From: Microbacterium sp.
GTDB taxonomy: Bacteria > Actinomycetota > Actinomycetes > Actinomycetales > Microbacteriaceae
Assembly (NCBI RefSeq): GCF_031178525.1
Contig: NZ_JAPSJA010000006.1
Span: 1-34,055 of the forward strand
Reading direction: 5' to 3'
DNA length: 34,055 bases
Shown here: positions 3,621 through 10,235 of the stretch, in pieces
How positions within the stretch are numbered: the stretch's first letter is position 1
How the letters are laid out: each line of letters starts with the position of its first letter
Translations under genes and position numbers: made by a program
Notes under the pieces: generated by a model
Seen by the model: only the letters and a program-made list of their open reading frames with translations
What the model was told of the DNA's origin: nothing
The model's database searches: none

Positions 3621-3648
3621 CCTCAGCCCTCAGCCCTCAGCCCTCAGC
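3621..3648. repeat. Four tandem copies of CCTCAGC
   Basis: The 7-nt unit CCTCAGC is repeated four times without mismatch between two convergent genes. The last copy contains the TGA stop of nhaA on the minus strand. On that strand the tract reads as spaced GGG runs. Confidence 0.9.
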
Positions 3649-5509
3649 TGCGCACGGGATCCGACGCGGACTCCTCGAGCGCCCGGATGAGCGAGCGCGC
3701 GTCGTACGGGCCCACGTGGCGTCGCCCGTTGATGAAGAACGTCGGGACGCTCGTGATGTCCATCGCCTCGGCGTCGAGCAGATCGTCTCGCACGTGCGCG
3801 GCGACATCGCCCGAGCGCAGGTCGTCCTCGAACCGCTCGACGTCGAGTCCCAGCTCCTCCGCGCGGCGGATGATGTCAGAGGGGCGCTGGTGCTCCTGAT
3901 CCGCGAACAGGCTGCGCTCGTACTCGAAGAACCGCCCCTGCTTGGCGGCGGCCTCCGACGCCTCTGCCGCCGCGAGGGCGTTCGGGTGCTTGCGCGTCAG
4001 CGGCGCGTGCCGCCAGACGTACCGCACGCGGTCGCCCAGCTCCTCATGCACCTCCTGGATCACGCCGGACGCCTTTGAGCAGAACTCGCACTGGAAGTCG
4101 CCGTACTCGACGATCTCGAGGGGAGCGTCCATCGAACCGAAGACGTGATCCCGGCGCGGATCCACGGGACGCTGCAGGAACTGGCCGGTCTCCTCCGCCG
4201 GCCGCGCGGCGTCGGAGATCCGGAACACGATCGTCGCGATGATCAGCGCGATGACCGACGCCGCCAGCACGCCCACGCGCGCCTCGTTCTGCACGGCCGG
4301 ATCATCGATCGCGAGCTCGATGATGAACAACGAGATGGTGAACCCGATGCCGCACAGCGCCGCGCCGCCCGCGACACGGTCGAGCGTCAGTCCGGGGCCG
4401 AACTCGCCGATCCGCATCACGCGCATGAGTGCGACCGGCCCCAGGATGCCGACGATCTTGCCGATCACCAGCGCGATCACGATGCCCCACGCGACGGGCG
4501 AGCGCACGGCGGCCGCCAGGATCTCGCCGTCCAGCCGCACGCCGGCGTTCGCCAGGGCGAACAGCGGCAGCACGGCGTAGGCGACGTACGGACCCCACGC
4601 GCTCTGCAGCCGCTCGTTGATCGAGATCGACTCGCGCAGGCTGTTCGCCGCCGCGCGCGCATACTCGGTGTTCGGCGACTGCCGGAACGTGCGCGCGAGG
4701 TCGAGCGCATGCTCGATGTCGCGGCGGTTCGGCCGGTAGACCGGCACGAGCAGCGCGATCGTGACGCCCGCAAGGGTCGGGTGCACGCCGGACGCGAGGA
4801 ACGCCAGCCACACGACGATCGCGAGGGTCGCGTACACGGGTCCGCGGCCGTTCGGCAGGTAGCGCGTGAAGTAGATCGCGGCGAGGCCCACCGCGGCGAT
4901 GATCAGCGGCATCGGGTCGAAGCTCTCGGTGTAGACGAGCGCGATGATGCTGAGCGCGCCGATGTCGTCCACGACCGCGAGCGTGAGAAGGAAGACCCGC
5001 AGCCGCCCGGGGACGCGCGGACCTATCAGCGCGAGCGCGCCGACGAGGAACGCAGTGTCGGTGGAGATCACGACCCCCCACGCGTGCTCCTGCCCCGTCC
5101 CTGCCGTGATGGCGACGTAGACGAGCGCGGGAACGGCCAGGCCCACGACCGCCGCGACGACCGGGACCATCGCGCGGGACCAGTCGGTGAGCTCGCCGAT
5201 CGCGAACTCGCGCCGCACCTCGAGCCCGACCGTGAAGAAGAACACCGCCATGAGCGCGTCGTTCACGAGGGCGTGCAGCGTGAAGTCGAGGTGCAGATCA
5301 CCCACGCCGATCGTGAAGTGGGTCTCCCAGAAGTCGCGGTACAGATCGCCGAACGCGTTCGCCCACAGGATGGCCACGATCGTCGCGATCACCAGCAGCA
5401 GCGCGCCCATCCGGGTCTGCCCCATGTTCTGGATCCACGACGCGATCGACTCCTTCGCCCCGCGCGCCCCCGACGGCCGAGCCGCGCCGATCGTGCTCAT
5501 GTTCGTCAT
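3644..5509 (-). CDS. nhaA: Na+/H+ antiporter NhaA fused to a DsbA-like thioredoxin domain
   Basis: Membrane Na+/H+ exchanger for sodium and pH homeostasis. Residues about 30-430 form the NhaA core with multiple hydrophobic segments. Visible hallmarks include VFFFTVGLEVRREF near the N-terminus, the STDTAF segment, the ion-binding acidic pair in VVDDIGA (about 180), and the conserved Lys in ALVIGKIVG. Residues about 445-621 are a DsbA/thioredoxin-like domain with GDFQCEFC (C474 and C477) and the cis-Pro region TSVPTFFING. The length of 621 against about 390 for single-domain NhaA reflects this fusion, which is known in actinobacteria. The ATG at 5509 has GGGAGG upstream; M4 is an alternative. 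The orientation of the tail (cytoplasmic or exported) cannot be read with certainty. The gene is convergent with the upstream flavoenzyme. Confidence 0.93.
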   Translation of the reverse strand: MTNMSTIGAARPSGARGAKESIASWIQNMGQTRMGALLLVIATIVAILWANAFGDLYRDFWETHFTIGVGDLHLDFTLHALVNDALMAVFFFTVGLEVRREFAIGELTDWSRAMVPVVAAVVGLAVPALVYVAITAGTGQEHAWGVVISTDTAFLVGALALIGPRVPGRLRVFLLTLAVVDDIGALSIIALVYTESFDPMPLIIAAVGLAAIYFTRYLPNGRGPVYATLAIVVWLAFLASGVHPTLAGVTIALLVPVYRPNRRDIEHALDLARTFRQSPNTEYARAAANSLRESISINERLQSAWGPYVAYAVLPLFALANAGVRLDGEILAAAVRSPVAWGIVIALVIGKIVGILGPVALMRVMRIGEFGPGLTLDRVAGGAALCGIGFTISLFIIELAIDDPAVQNEARVGVLAASVIALIIATIVFRISDAARPAEETGQFLQRPVDPRRDHVFGSMDAPLEIVEYGDFQCEFCSKASGVIQEVHEELGDRVRYVWRHAPLTRKHPNALAAAEASEAAAKQGRFFEYERSLFADQEHQRPSDIIRRAEELGLDVERFEDDLRSGDVAAHVRDDLLDAEAMDITSVPTFFINGRRHVGPYDARSLIRALEESASDPVRS

Positions 5510-6806: not shown

Positions 6807-9164
6807 CTAGGAGGTCAGGACCACGAGCTCGCGCGTCGCTCGCGTCATCGCCACGTAACGGTCGACGGCTCCCTCGATGCCGCCTCCCCACGACTGGGGA
6901 TCCACGATCACGACGAGATCGAACTCGAGACCCTTCGCCCGTGCCGGCGACAGCGAGCGGATCCGCGCCGTGTCGGCGAACGACGGATCGCCGATCACGC
7001 ATGCGACGCCTTCGTCATGGGCCGCGGCCCACGACGCGAGGATCTCGTCGCGCGTGCGGACCCCGGCGTGGCGCACCGGTATCCCGCTGCGCCGGATCGA
7101 GGTGGGCACGTTCGCGCCGGGAATCGCCGCCCGGATGACCGGTGCCGCTTCGGCCATGACCTCCTCCGGCGTGCGGTAGTTGACCGTCAGCGCCGCGAGC
7201 GTCACATCCCGCAGGCCGACGGTCGCGAGCCGGTCGCGCCAGGACTCGGCGAAGCCGTGCCGAGCCTGCGCGCGGTCTCCGACGACCGTGAAGCTGCGTG
7301 CCGGATTGCGGCGCAGCAGCATCTGCCATTCGGCGGCCGTGAGCTCCTGCGCCTCGTCCACGACGATGTGCGCGAACGGTCCCGCCAGCTCGTCGTCCCT
7401 CGCCGCGGGCGACGCCGACGCTCCGAGGGTGCTGCGCAGATCCTGCCCGCGCAGCATCGCCATGACCCGGAGGTCGGAGTCGTCGGTCGCGATCAGATCG
7501 GCGACGACGTCGTCCATCCTGGCGCGCTCGGCGGCCGCCTCAGCCTCGGCGCGACGACGACGGATGGCGGTGTCGGGATCGCCCGTCCGCAGCCGTGCCG
7601 CGTCGAGCAGCGGCAGGTCCGGCCGCGTCCACGGGGCATCGGCGGGGCGCTGCAGGAGTGCGACCTCGGCGTCGGCGAGCCAGGGCGCGCAGCGTCGCAG
7701 CAGCGCCGCGTCCGTCCACAGCGCCCGCACGAGAGCGACCGGGTCCAGCAGCGGCCACGCCGCATCGAACGCCGCGCGCAGTCCGTCGCTCTCGGCCAGG
7801 GCGCGGCGGATCTCCTCTTCGCCGTCCTCTGCGAGGCCGTACGCGTCGAACTGATCGTCGTCCTGGTCGGCACGGGCCTCCGCGCGACGCTCGTCATCCC
7901 AGGCGGTCGTGCCGGCGTCCCCCCAGCCTTCGCCCGCCCAGCGATCGTCGGGCCCGGCACCGCCCCGGCCGTCGTCCTCCCCCGAGACGTGCCCGCCGCG
8001 CGGTGCCGCATGCACCCGATCCACCAGGATCCGCAGGAGCGCGTTCCATGCCTGCTCCCGGGCCTCGTTGTGGGTGGCGGCCGGCTCGATCGCCCCGAAC
8101 GCCTCCTCCCACTCGGCCACGCGGACCCGCATCTCGCCCCATGCCGTGTCGACGATCGCCTCACGCTTCGGTGGGCGCTCGCGCAGCCGCACGGCCGCGT
8201 CGACCGCCGCGGTCATCCGGCCGTCCGCCTTGAGGCGTGACACCTCGGCGTCCGCCTCCTCCACAGCCGTCGCGCCCTCCGCAACCAGGTCTGGCAGCGT
8301 CGCGATGCGCACCCCCTCCTCCCCGAGCCTGGGGAGGATGTCGGCGACGTAGTCGGTGTAGGTGTGCGACGGACCGACGAACAGAACGCCGCCGCGCCCC
8401 TCCTGCAGCCGCGGGTCGGCGTAGAGCAGATAGGCCGTGCGGTGCAGCGCGACGACGGTCTTGCCCGTACCCGGCCCGCCGTCGACCACGAGCGTCCCGC
8501 GCGATCCGGCGCGGATGATCGCATCCTGATCCGCCTGGATCGTGCCCAGCACGTCCCGCATGCGGGGCGAACGACTGGCGCCGAGGGTCGCGATGAACGC
8601 CGAATGATCGTCGAGCGCGGCACCTCCCGCTTCCGTGATCTCCGCGAGCCCCTCGGCCGTGAACGCCTCGTCCCAGTAGTCGGTGACGCGCCCCTCGTGC
8701 CAGCGATAACGGCGCCGGCTGGTGAGCCCCATCGGATCGGCGTGCGTCGCCCCGAAGAAGGGCTCGGCGGCGGGCGCGCGCCAGTCGACGAGCAGCGGCT
8801 CGCCCGTCTCGTCCATCAGCGCGAGACGGCCGATGTAGAGGACACCGCCCTCGCCGACGACACGGCCGAGACACAGATCGAGACCGAAGCGGCGCAGCAT
8901 TCGCAGTCGGGCGGTCAGGCGATGGATCTCCAGGTCGCGCTCGAGTGCCGCCTGCCCGCGGCCGGCGGGCGCACGGCGCTGAGCGTCGAGGCGCGTCTCG
9001 AGGTCGGAGATCCGGCGCGCGAGGCTCGCCTCGATCCGCGCGAACTGCGCGACGTCGGGCGCGATGAGCGCGGGGTCGGCCTTCCCAGGATGCGCGTCGA
9101 GGAGGAACGGGTGGGTGCTGTGGGCGTGCAACACGGCGGCTCCGGTGGTGAGGGGAACCGCCAT
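6807..9164 (-). CDS. helR: HelR, RNA polymerase-recycling UvrD/HelD-like ATPase
   Basis: A 785-residue superfamily 1 helicase-like ATPase of the HelD/HelR group. These proteins bind RNA polymerase, remove stalled complexes and, for HelR, displace rifamycins. The N-terminus (about 20-110) is a charged coiled-coil-like arm. LYIGRLALMDETGEPLLVDW is typical of the HelD/HelR N-terminal domain. Walker A is GGPGTGKT (about 229-236), motif II VDEAQE (about 601), and the C-terminus carries the UvrD-like AMTRATRELVV motif. About residues 410-500 are an acidic insertion. The start at 9164 (MAVPLTTG) is preferred: it is the only nearby ATG, and the ORF-track extension would translate straight through the rifamycin-associated-element-like palindrome at 9179-9199. 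Intrinsic rifamycin tolerance is inferred from family plus element. HelD itself is the main alternative. Confidence 0.86.
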   Translation of the reverse strand: MAVPLTTGAAVLHAHSTHPFLLDAHPGKADPALIAPDVAQFARIEASLARRISDLETRLDAQRRAPAGRGQAALERDLEIHRLTARLRMLRRFGLDLCLGRVVGEGGVLYIGRLALMDETGEPLLVDWRAPAAEPFFGATHADPMGLTSRRRYRWHEGRVTDYWDEAFTAEGLAEITEAGGAALDDHSAFIATLGASRSPRMRDVLGTIQADQDAIIRAGSRGTLVVDGGPGTGKTVVALHRTAYLLYADPRLQEGRGGVLFVGPSHTYTDYVADILPRLGEEGVRIATLPDLVAEGATAVEEADAEVSRLKADGRMTAAVDAAVRLRERPPKREAIVDTAWGEMRVRVAEWEEAFGAIEPAATHNEAREQAWNALLRILVDRVHAAPRGGHVSGEDDGRGGAGPDDRWAGEGWGDAGTTAWDDERRAEARADQDDDQFDAYGLAEDGEEEIRRALAESDGLRAAFDAAWPLLDPVALVRALWTDAALLRRCAPWLADAEVALLQRPADAPWTRPDLPLLDAARLRTGDPDTAIRRRRAEAEAAAERARMDDVVADLIATDDSDLRVMAMLRGQDLRSTLGASASPAARDDELAGPFAHIVVDEAQELTAAEWQMLLRRNPARSFTVVGDRAQARHGFAESWRDRLATVGLRDVTLAALTVNYRTPEEVMAEAAPVIRAAIPGANVPTSIRRSGIPVRHAGVRTRDEILASWAAAHDEGVACVIGDPSFADTARIRSLSPARAKGLEFDLVVIVDPQSWGGGIEGAVDRYVAMTRATRELVVLTS

Positions 9165-9178
9165 TCTGCGCCCTGACC

Positions 9179-9199
9179 GGGGCCTTGCGGCAAGACCCC
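9179..9199 (-). promoter_or_regulatory. Rifamycin-associated element (RAE)-like inverted repeat
   Basis: Read on the minus strand the site is GGGGTCTTGC-C-GCAAGGCCCC: 10-bp arms with one mismatch around a single base, ending 14 nt before the helR ATG. It matches the RAE found upstream of rifamycin-inducible genes, including helR, as I recall that consensus. A GGATAC hexamer (plus-strand 9209-9214) upstream could be a -10, which would place the element in the 5' leader; the transcription start is not determinable by eye. Confidence 0.75.
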
Positions 9200-9422
9200 A
9201 CCCCTTCGGTATCCTGGAGATGCGGGCGGATCCCGGCCTCTCGCGTCCGCGCGATCGAGGCACTCCGACGGGGCGCACAGCGACCTCATCGCCCCGCCGA
9301 CGCTCGCGCAACGAAGCCTGCAGCGCCTCCTTCGCGCTGCCACCACCCCCGTCTCACCGGCGCGGCGGACACGGGCGGCACCGGCTGCTGTCAACCCTTG
9401 TCGGGCCGCCGGCAGCCGTGGT

Positions 9423-9434
9423 TACGCTCGGACG
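9423..9434 (+). promoter_or_regulatory. Leaderless-type -10 (TACGCT-N6-ATG)
   Basis: TACGCT at 9423-9428 is separated by CGGACG from the ATG of the histidine phosphatase. No Shine-Dalgarno sequence is present, so transcription probably begins at the ATG. Confidence 0.55.
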
Positions 9435-10235
9435 ATGGGACTCGAGCGACTCGTGATCGTCCGTCACGGTGAGAGCGTCGGCAACGAGGCGGCGACCGCC
9501 GCCGAACTGGCGGGTGACCAGGTCATCGACCTGCCGTTCCGCGATGCCGATACGCCGCTCTCCGACACGGGCGAAGCGCAGGCACGCGCACTGGGTGCCG
9601 CGCTGCCGTCACACGGTGTCGGAGCGGACGCCGCGGTGTGGGCCTCCACGTACCGTCGGGCCGCGCACACGGGCCGGCTCGCCCTCGTAGCCGCAGGCCT
9701 GCCCGGCGGGCCACGGCTCGACGAGCGATTGCGTGACCGCGAGCTGGGCGTGCTCGACCACCTCACGTCGCACGGCGTGAGCGCGCGCTACGAGGCCGAG
9801 GCGGAGCGCCGCGCCCACCTGGGCAAGTTCTACTACCGCCCGCCCGGCGGTGAGTCGTGGGCGGATGTCGCCCTCCGGTTGCGTTCCTTCCTCGCGGATG
9901 CGAAGGCCTCTCCCGCCACGACCGGCGTCGTGTTCGCGCACGAGGCGATCGTCCAGCTCATCCGCTACGTGCTCGAGGACTGGGACGAGCAGCGCGTGCT
10001 GAGCGCGGCGGTCGAGGAGCCGGCGCCGAACGCGTCGGTGACCGTCCTCGAGGCGGATCCTCGTCCCGGGCAGCCCTGGCGAGCCGCGGTGGTCGGCGAC
10101 GTCTCGCACCTCGATCGGCACGGCGTGCCGACGACGCTGCACACGGGCAGGAGGGACGTCGCGCCTCACCACGACGAGATCGACCCCGGCCGGCCCGAAG
10201 ACGCCGAGGAGGAATCCCGTGCCGCTGCAGACTAG
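9435..10235 (+). CDS. Histidine phosphatase family protein
   Basis: A 266-residue phosphoglycerate mutase-like phosphatase. The phospho-accepting His is H11 in IVRHGES, and the second conserved His is in FAHEAIVQLI (about 168). Conserved Arg/Glu lie in TYRRAAHT and RLRDRELGVLDH. The last 40 residues are a charged tail beyond the fold. The substrate cannot be told from sequence; the superfamily includes mutases, phytases and cofactor phosphatases. The start ATG is set by a leaderless-type promoter. The gene overlaps nnrD by 17 nt, so they are probably an operon, which could hint at a nucleotide or cofactor substrate, though this is only inference. It is divergent from helR. Confidence 0.88.
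   Translation: MGLERLVIVRHGESVGNEAATAAELAGDQVIDLPFRDADTPLSDTGEAQARALGAALPSHGVGADAAVWASTYRRAAHTGRLALVAAGLPGGPRLDERLRDRELGVLDHLTSHGVSARYEAEAERRAHLGKFYYRPPGGESWADVALRLRSFLADAKASPATTGVVFAHEAIVQLIRYVLEDWDEQRVLSAAVEEPAPNASVTVLEADPRPGQPWRAAVVGDVSHLDRHGVPTTLHTGRRDVAPHHDEIDPGRPEDAEEESRAAAD

Follow-up and report, generated by a model that had tools for sequence, protein, structure and literature searches.

Rifampicin induction has been documented for the helD genes of M. smegmatis (PMC6529629) and M. abscessus (PMC10719064). In M. smegmatis, two gene-directed promoters, P1 and P2, have been assigned to helD, with the start of P1 lying ~20 bp upstream of the rifamycin-associated element (RAE), and the -35 of helD promoter 2 has been placed on the RAE itself (PMC10719064). 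The pairing of an RAE with helR in Microbacterium is already known, since the RAE-linked helR group of Larsen 2021 (PMC8655204) includes two genes from Microbacterium. RAE-based rifamycin sensing in actinobacteria, including rifampicin-treated mycobacteria, was described as unexplained in papers from 2022 and 2026. A two-promoter alarm is known from the helD/pps region of Bacillus subtilis, where the gene is kept off by an opposing promoter that makes a short terminated RNA, and this opposing promoter is jammed by rifampicin; moving the two promoters close together abolished induction (PMC12802891).

The locus described here lies in a 34,055-nucleotide stretch of DNA from Microbacterium sp. 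(the window), in which helR is the rifamycin-resistance gene directly under the RAE. Its protein family and the 19-bp palindrome upstream are those already described for helR genes under RAE control in Streptomyces venezuelae, Mycobacterium abscessus and Microbacterium (Surette 2022; Hurst-Hess 2022; Larsen 2021). Whereas the literature regards this palindrome as probably factor-bound, we propose a symmetric arrangement that includes an outward promoter and a terminator; the RAE papers cited here by PMC number mention no such symmetric outward promoter or terminator. As in Bacillus helD/pps (PMC12802891), where helD and a rifampicin-modifying enzyme lie downstream of the arrangement, a gene-directed promoter would be combined with an opposing promoter for a short RNA. 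Unlike the Bacillus promoters, which converge and yield an RNA of ~90 nt, the predicted RAE promoters diverge, share a single -35 and would produce an outward RNA of roughly 30 nt, so that the Bacillus-type layout of two convergent promoters 45–100 bp apart is not found here. Interference between the promoters would have to take another form. Bidirectional bacterial promoters with symmetric elements, in which sigma reads one DNA element both ways as proposed here, have reportedly been described by Warman et al. 2021; those promoters are said to share or overlap their -10 elements, whereas in the RAE it would be the -35 that is shared, within a dedicated palindrome associated with genes for rifamycin resistance.

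HelR and its RAE

Translated from ATG 9164, the window protein scores 1062.7 bits against NCBIfam NF041254 (motor_HelR, cut-off 750), but only 334 bits against HelD_MYCSM, below the cut-off of 1051, and it also falls under the cut-offs of HelR_2 and HelD_BACSU. Among solved structures, its closest relative is M. smegmatis HelD. In a FastTree phylogeny of 117 HelR and HelD proteins, it lies inside a clade of 83 RAE-type HelR (support 0.986), with 30 mycobacterial or class HelD loci outside. The first-pass annotation of this DNA, which had called the protein HelR-like and named grouping with HelD as a refutation, is borne out on this point. As a candidate acidic tip of the primary-channel loop, ATDDSDL (residues 559–565) matches the DDS/DDD of relatives; compared with EDLMDDEDH of mycobacteria the loop is shortened, which leaves Glu484 and Asp485 with no clear one-to-one counterparts. 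The 'PEAN' motif that the same annotation had named was not found in the HelD/HelR papers cited here by PMC number. An acidic, low-complexity insertion at 7819–8009 (residues ~386–450) interrupts the alignment, so that most genus orthologues match in two pieces.

The RAE reads GGGGTCTTGCCGCAAGGCCCC on the helR strand, 14 nt from ATG 9164–9162, and contains at 9180–9198 an exact match to the 19-bp palindrome GGGnCTTGCsGCAAGnCCC, the form seen in genus and class. The window's own genome (2.85 Mb, 87% complete) holds one HelR and one RAE, the latter being the sole copy at up to two mismatches, and the RAE core is present upstream of 60 of the 64 HelR-type genes inspected in the genus, where HelR occurs in somewhat fewer than half of 149 genomes. 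A chance match can thus be dismissed, and the 21-bp inverted repeat is a genuine RAE, as had been proposed. The features of the region are as follows.

6807–9134, minus strand: helR coding region (NF041254), 775 aa, likely start GTG 9134 (from 60 aligned upstream regions and ribosome sites)
9140–9143, minus strand: ribosome-binding site GGAG, 5 nt before GTG 9134; a CGGAGCC motif also stands ahead of orthologue starts
9156–9158, minus strand: predicted helR transcription start, 5–7 nt downstream of the -10
9163–9168, minus strand: predicted gene-facing -10 CAGAAT, overlapping ATG 9164; ANNNT exactly here in 59/60 genus loci and 26/26 class helR loci among the matches listed
9179–9199, no strand: RAE palindrome, GGGGCCTTGCGGCAAGACCCC on the plus strand, with core CTTGCsGCAAG at 9184–9194; kept upstream of genus helR
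9185–9190, plus strand: predicted outward -35 TTGCGG, the palindrome partner in the RAE, with the same 19-bp spacing to the outward -10
9188–9193, minus strand: predicted gene-facing -35 TTGCCG, within the RAE, 19 bp from the conserved -10
9210–9215, plus strand: predicted outward -10 TATCCT; exact TATCCT in 36/60 genus loci, ANNNT in 59/60
9222–9244, plus strand: predicted outward +1 (9222) and hairpin-terminator site of relatives; here an imperfect 8-bp stem with no T run

To place the start of the gene, we aligned 60 genus loci on the RAE core, taking the first C of CTTGCsGCAAG as index 0 (window coordinate = 9194 minus index). Nearly all of them carry a block CA[GT]A[AC]T at index 26–31, 19 bp past the TTGCsG in the RAE, and ATG 9164–9162 is made of the last two bases of this block (CAGAAT, 9168–9163) plus a G. 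Orthologue starts fall between index 40 and ~125, mostly behind GGAG or GAAGGAG; GTG 9134 of the window stands at index 60, behind GGAG 9143–9140. Since ATG 9164 is part of the conserved -10, would add ten residues that are not conserved, and lies closer to the core than the starts of orthologues, the alignment makes GTG 9134 the likely start of helR. The edge of the RAE is then ~44 nt away, and its supposedly unusual position almost at the ATG vanishes as an artefact: the repeat had been located exactly, but the codon from which the 14 nt were counted is the tail of a -10 box. More generally, helR start codons called beside an RAE can be -10 boxes.

The first-pass annotation had offered two readings of this proximity, a very compact promoter, which comes close to the arrangement proposed here, and an RNA hairpin formed by the RAE in the helR 5' leader beside the ribosome site. 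The 14-nt distance to ATG 9164 would suit the hairpin, and RNA transcribed from a 21-nt dyad would fold. With the gene-facing -10 overlapping that ATG, however, the predicted +1 lies downstream of both the ATG and the RAE, which would leave the RAE outside the helR mRNA; moreover, other species start well downstream of the RAE, and induction is transcriptional (PMC10719064). A leader hairpin is therefore very improbable.

Mirror-image boxes around the RAE

The genus alignment contains a second conserved block at index -21 to -16, at the mirror distance of the gene-facing -10, and in the window both boxes stand exactly at the expected positions. We scanned GTDB genomes for the 19-bp palindrome, with the boxes not used in the search, and recovered at least 80 loci (at least 81 sites), nearly all from at least 37 actinobacterial genera, plus two MAGs; mycobacterial relatives represented the M. 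smegmatis region in the comparison. Among the matches listed, NANNNT occurs at one exact mirror offset in 96% of 162 arms (81 sites), compared with mostly 0–5%, and at most 27%, at other offsets, and 76 of the 81 sites carry both boxes at equal distances either side of the core; the loci are phylogenetically related, so these counts, like those for terminators below, are not independent. Three of the five sites lacking the pair (L129, L155, L160) are chance matches outside Actinobacteria without boxes, while L111 has its gene-facing box displaced by 1 bp and L163 lacks the outward box.

The boxes fall into two types among the matches listed, one CAGAAT-like and one TAnnTT-like (TAnnnT), and it is the former that faces the resistance gene, in 71 of 72 checkable loci: HelR in 28, Rox in 24, Rph in 8, Rgt in 6 and Arr in 5, with these family assignments confirmed. 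A T-type box faces a resistance gene once among these matches, and there the C-type box faces another. The exception to the 71 is L121 from Actinoplanes aureus, where the CAGAAT-type box faces an MFS transporter. At this locus (L121:60-1797), the RAE, both boxes and an outward hairpin stand ahead of the transporter gene (PF07690), which is a candidate RAE-controlled efflux pump.

Since ANNNT is self-complementary, the position of the outward box alone gives no direction, and its strand was tested separately. This bears on an alternative in which the RAE is the -35 of an ordinary gene-directed promoter, and a second such promoter, P1, has the upstream ANNNT as its -10. Such a reading would agree with the report that both P1 and P2 drive M. 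smegmatis helD (PMC10719064) and draws on the same self-complementarity, which allows reading of the box in both directions. Among the matches listed for the class, and in the genus, the first position is nevertheless T when the box is read outward (48/60 genus and 24/26 class loci) and rarely so when read inward (1/60 and 2/26), where it is C. No TTG is found at spacers of 15–21 for an inward -35 in the 86 loci (60 genus loci and 26 class loci among the matches listed), and the fit to TATAAT is better outward in 59/60 genus and 23/26 class loci among the matches listed, and poorer in 0 and 1. We consequently rejected the outward box as the gene-directed P1. No conserved gene-directed -10 for P1 was found in our alignment, in conflict with PMC10719064.

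A terminator just past the outward box also argues against the P1 reading. In many loci the outward strand there reads GGCAAGGAG...CTCCTTGCCTTTT, an intrinsic terminator. Among the matches listed class-wide, such terminators are found outward in 37 of 73 loci, compared with 6.6 in mononucleotide shuffles and with 1 of 73 on the gene side, and for 35 of the 37 outward hairpins the first base is exactly the predicted +1. Stems of at least 8 pairs at the outward +1 are present in 47 of 74 loci among the matches listed (shuffled mean 23, maximum 31); a T run follows in 70% of the loci with a stem against a background of 6%, and most stem positions show several pair types. With hairpin and T run starting at the outward +1 in outward polarity, an inward P1 is improbable. 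No Rfam family matches the outward hairpin. The terminator has mostly been lost from the genus Microbacterium, where 6 of 60 loci exceed the threshold, and the window keeps both boxes, including the outward -10, without it. Within window positions 9050–9600, a generic search for sigma-70 promoters and terminators found nothing, because its spacer limit is 18 bp and the spacer here is 19 bp.

The outward box does not appear to be kept for a neighbouring gene, because among 64 outward-side ORFs of the matches listed any one Pfam family turns up in at most 2, and the orientation of the upstream gene is mixed and often opposite to the outward direction; we rejected this role on those grounds. A leaderless or conserved outward peptide was likewise rejected: [AG]TG is often found near the outward +1, but the open frames are no longer than other frames. 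In the window, a histidine-phosphatase-like gene lies downstream of the outward promoter (9435–10235, plus strand), and the outward transcript could reach it, as the terminator is missing here. Further away, at 3644–5509 on the minus strand, a 621-aa ORF resembles an NhaA-type Na+/H+ antiporter fused to a DsbA/thioredoxin-like domain; both assignments come from reading the sequence only.

A possible choice of direction for RNA polymerase

Taken together, the conserved boxes and spacings indicate that the RAE is very probably the shared -35 of a back-to-back promoter pair, and the element would be better annotated as a directional module of ~70–100 bp. Our favoured explanation, which we judge to be about as likely as not, is that this pair governs helR by acting as a polarity switch. 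In such a switch, the palindrome would offer a TTGCsG -35 both ways, each separated by exactly 19 bp from the -10 of its arm. The gene-facing promoter, its -10 weakened to CAGAAT (with C, not T, at the first position), would produce a short-leader helR mRNA, with translation starting at GTG 9134, while the outward promoter, with its TAnnnT box, would in many lineages yield nothing beyond an RNA of roughly 30 nt that ends in a hairpin terminator. By default, RNA polymerase would be drawn outward into this dead-end unit; rifamycin would tip promoter use towards the resistance gene, and HelR would then displace rifamycin from RNA polymerase.

Joint occupancy of both promoters would be difficult, which is why the element may act as a polarity switch. 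Everything presented here comes from comparing sequences, and this shows the identity of HelR, the RAE, the two boxes with their fixed symmetric spacing, the polarity towards the gene and the terminator; firing of both promoters, their mutual exclusion and a rifamycin-driven shift from one to the other are what we infer. Since the outward promoter appears to be kept for its own sake, ends at once in a terminator and has its -35 in common with a weak promoter facing the gene, the choice of the polymerase between the two directions is suggested as the regulated step. Against the switch, simple competition on a shared -35 has the wrong sign, as a polymerase jammed by rifamycin at the outward promoter is then predicted to obstruct the gene, not to induce it. 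The loss of induction from closely spaced promoters in Bacillus (PMC12802891) and the missing terminator in most Microbacterium loci, the window among them, also count against it. In a narrower version, RNA polymerase itself would be the sensor, with no dedicated regulator: the outward unit, a self-terminating and non-coding decoy of ~30 nt, would hold the resistance gene silent up to the point at which polymerase is stalled there by rifamycin. This version seems to us rather unlikely.

Constraint on the RAE, with its GGG and CCC flanks, goes well past the requirements of a -35, which suggests that a protein also binds it. In a further explanation, the RAE would be chiefly the operator of a dimeric rifamycin-responsive protein sitting on the -35 region, with rifamycin releasing or converting the protein and the outward promoter being a co-regulated by-product. 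The near-perfect 19-bp dyad and its strictness speak for an RAE-binding protein as the sensor, this is the view taken in the literature (PMC10719064, PMC12802891), and in M. abscessus induction is lost when half of the RAE is deleted (PMC10719064). That deletion also takes away the -35, however, and an operator leaves unexplained why nearly all loci among the matches listed keep an outward -10 at one fixed distance, often with a terminator just past it; nor does any Pfam family, and hence any regulator family, recur among the 64 outward-side ORFs of these matches. We regard the operator as a real possibility, though on balance not a probable one. For the promoter pair, the symmetric layout, fixed 19-bp spacers and dead-end outward RNA reduce the sensing question to a few point mutations in a reporter.

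Complete RAE modules with a terminator stand before rph and arr in a Chloroflexi MAG (L166) and a Xanthomonadaceae MAG (L179). Their binning outside Actinobacteria reflects either transfer or mis-binning; transfer would argue against a specific regulator. Within the genus, four HelR-type genes (L086, L095, L097 and L098) have neither an RAE nor an outward box and carry a GAGAAT/CAGAAT box a few nt ahead of a GTG start, resembling a leaderless promoter. Three of them form a single clade (support 0.937), L098 being too short for the tree, and these RAE-less helR genes are perhaps constitutive.
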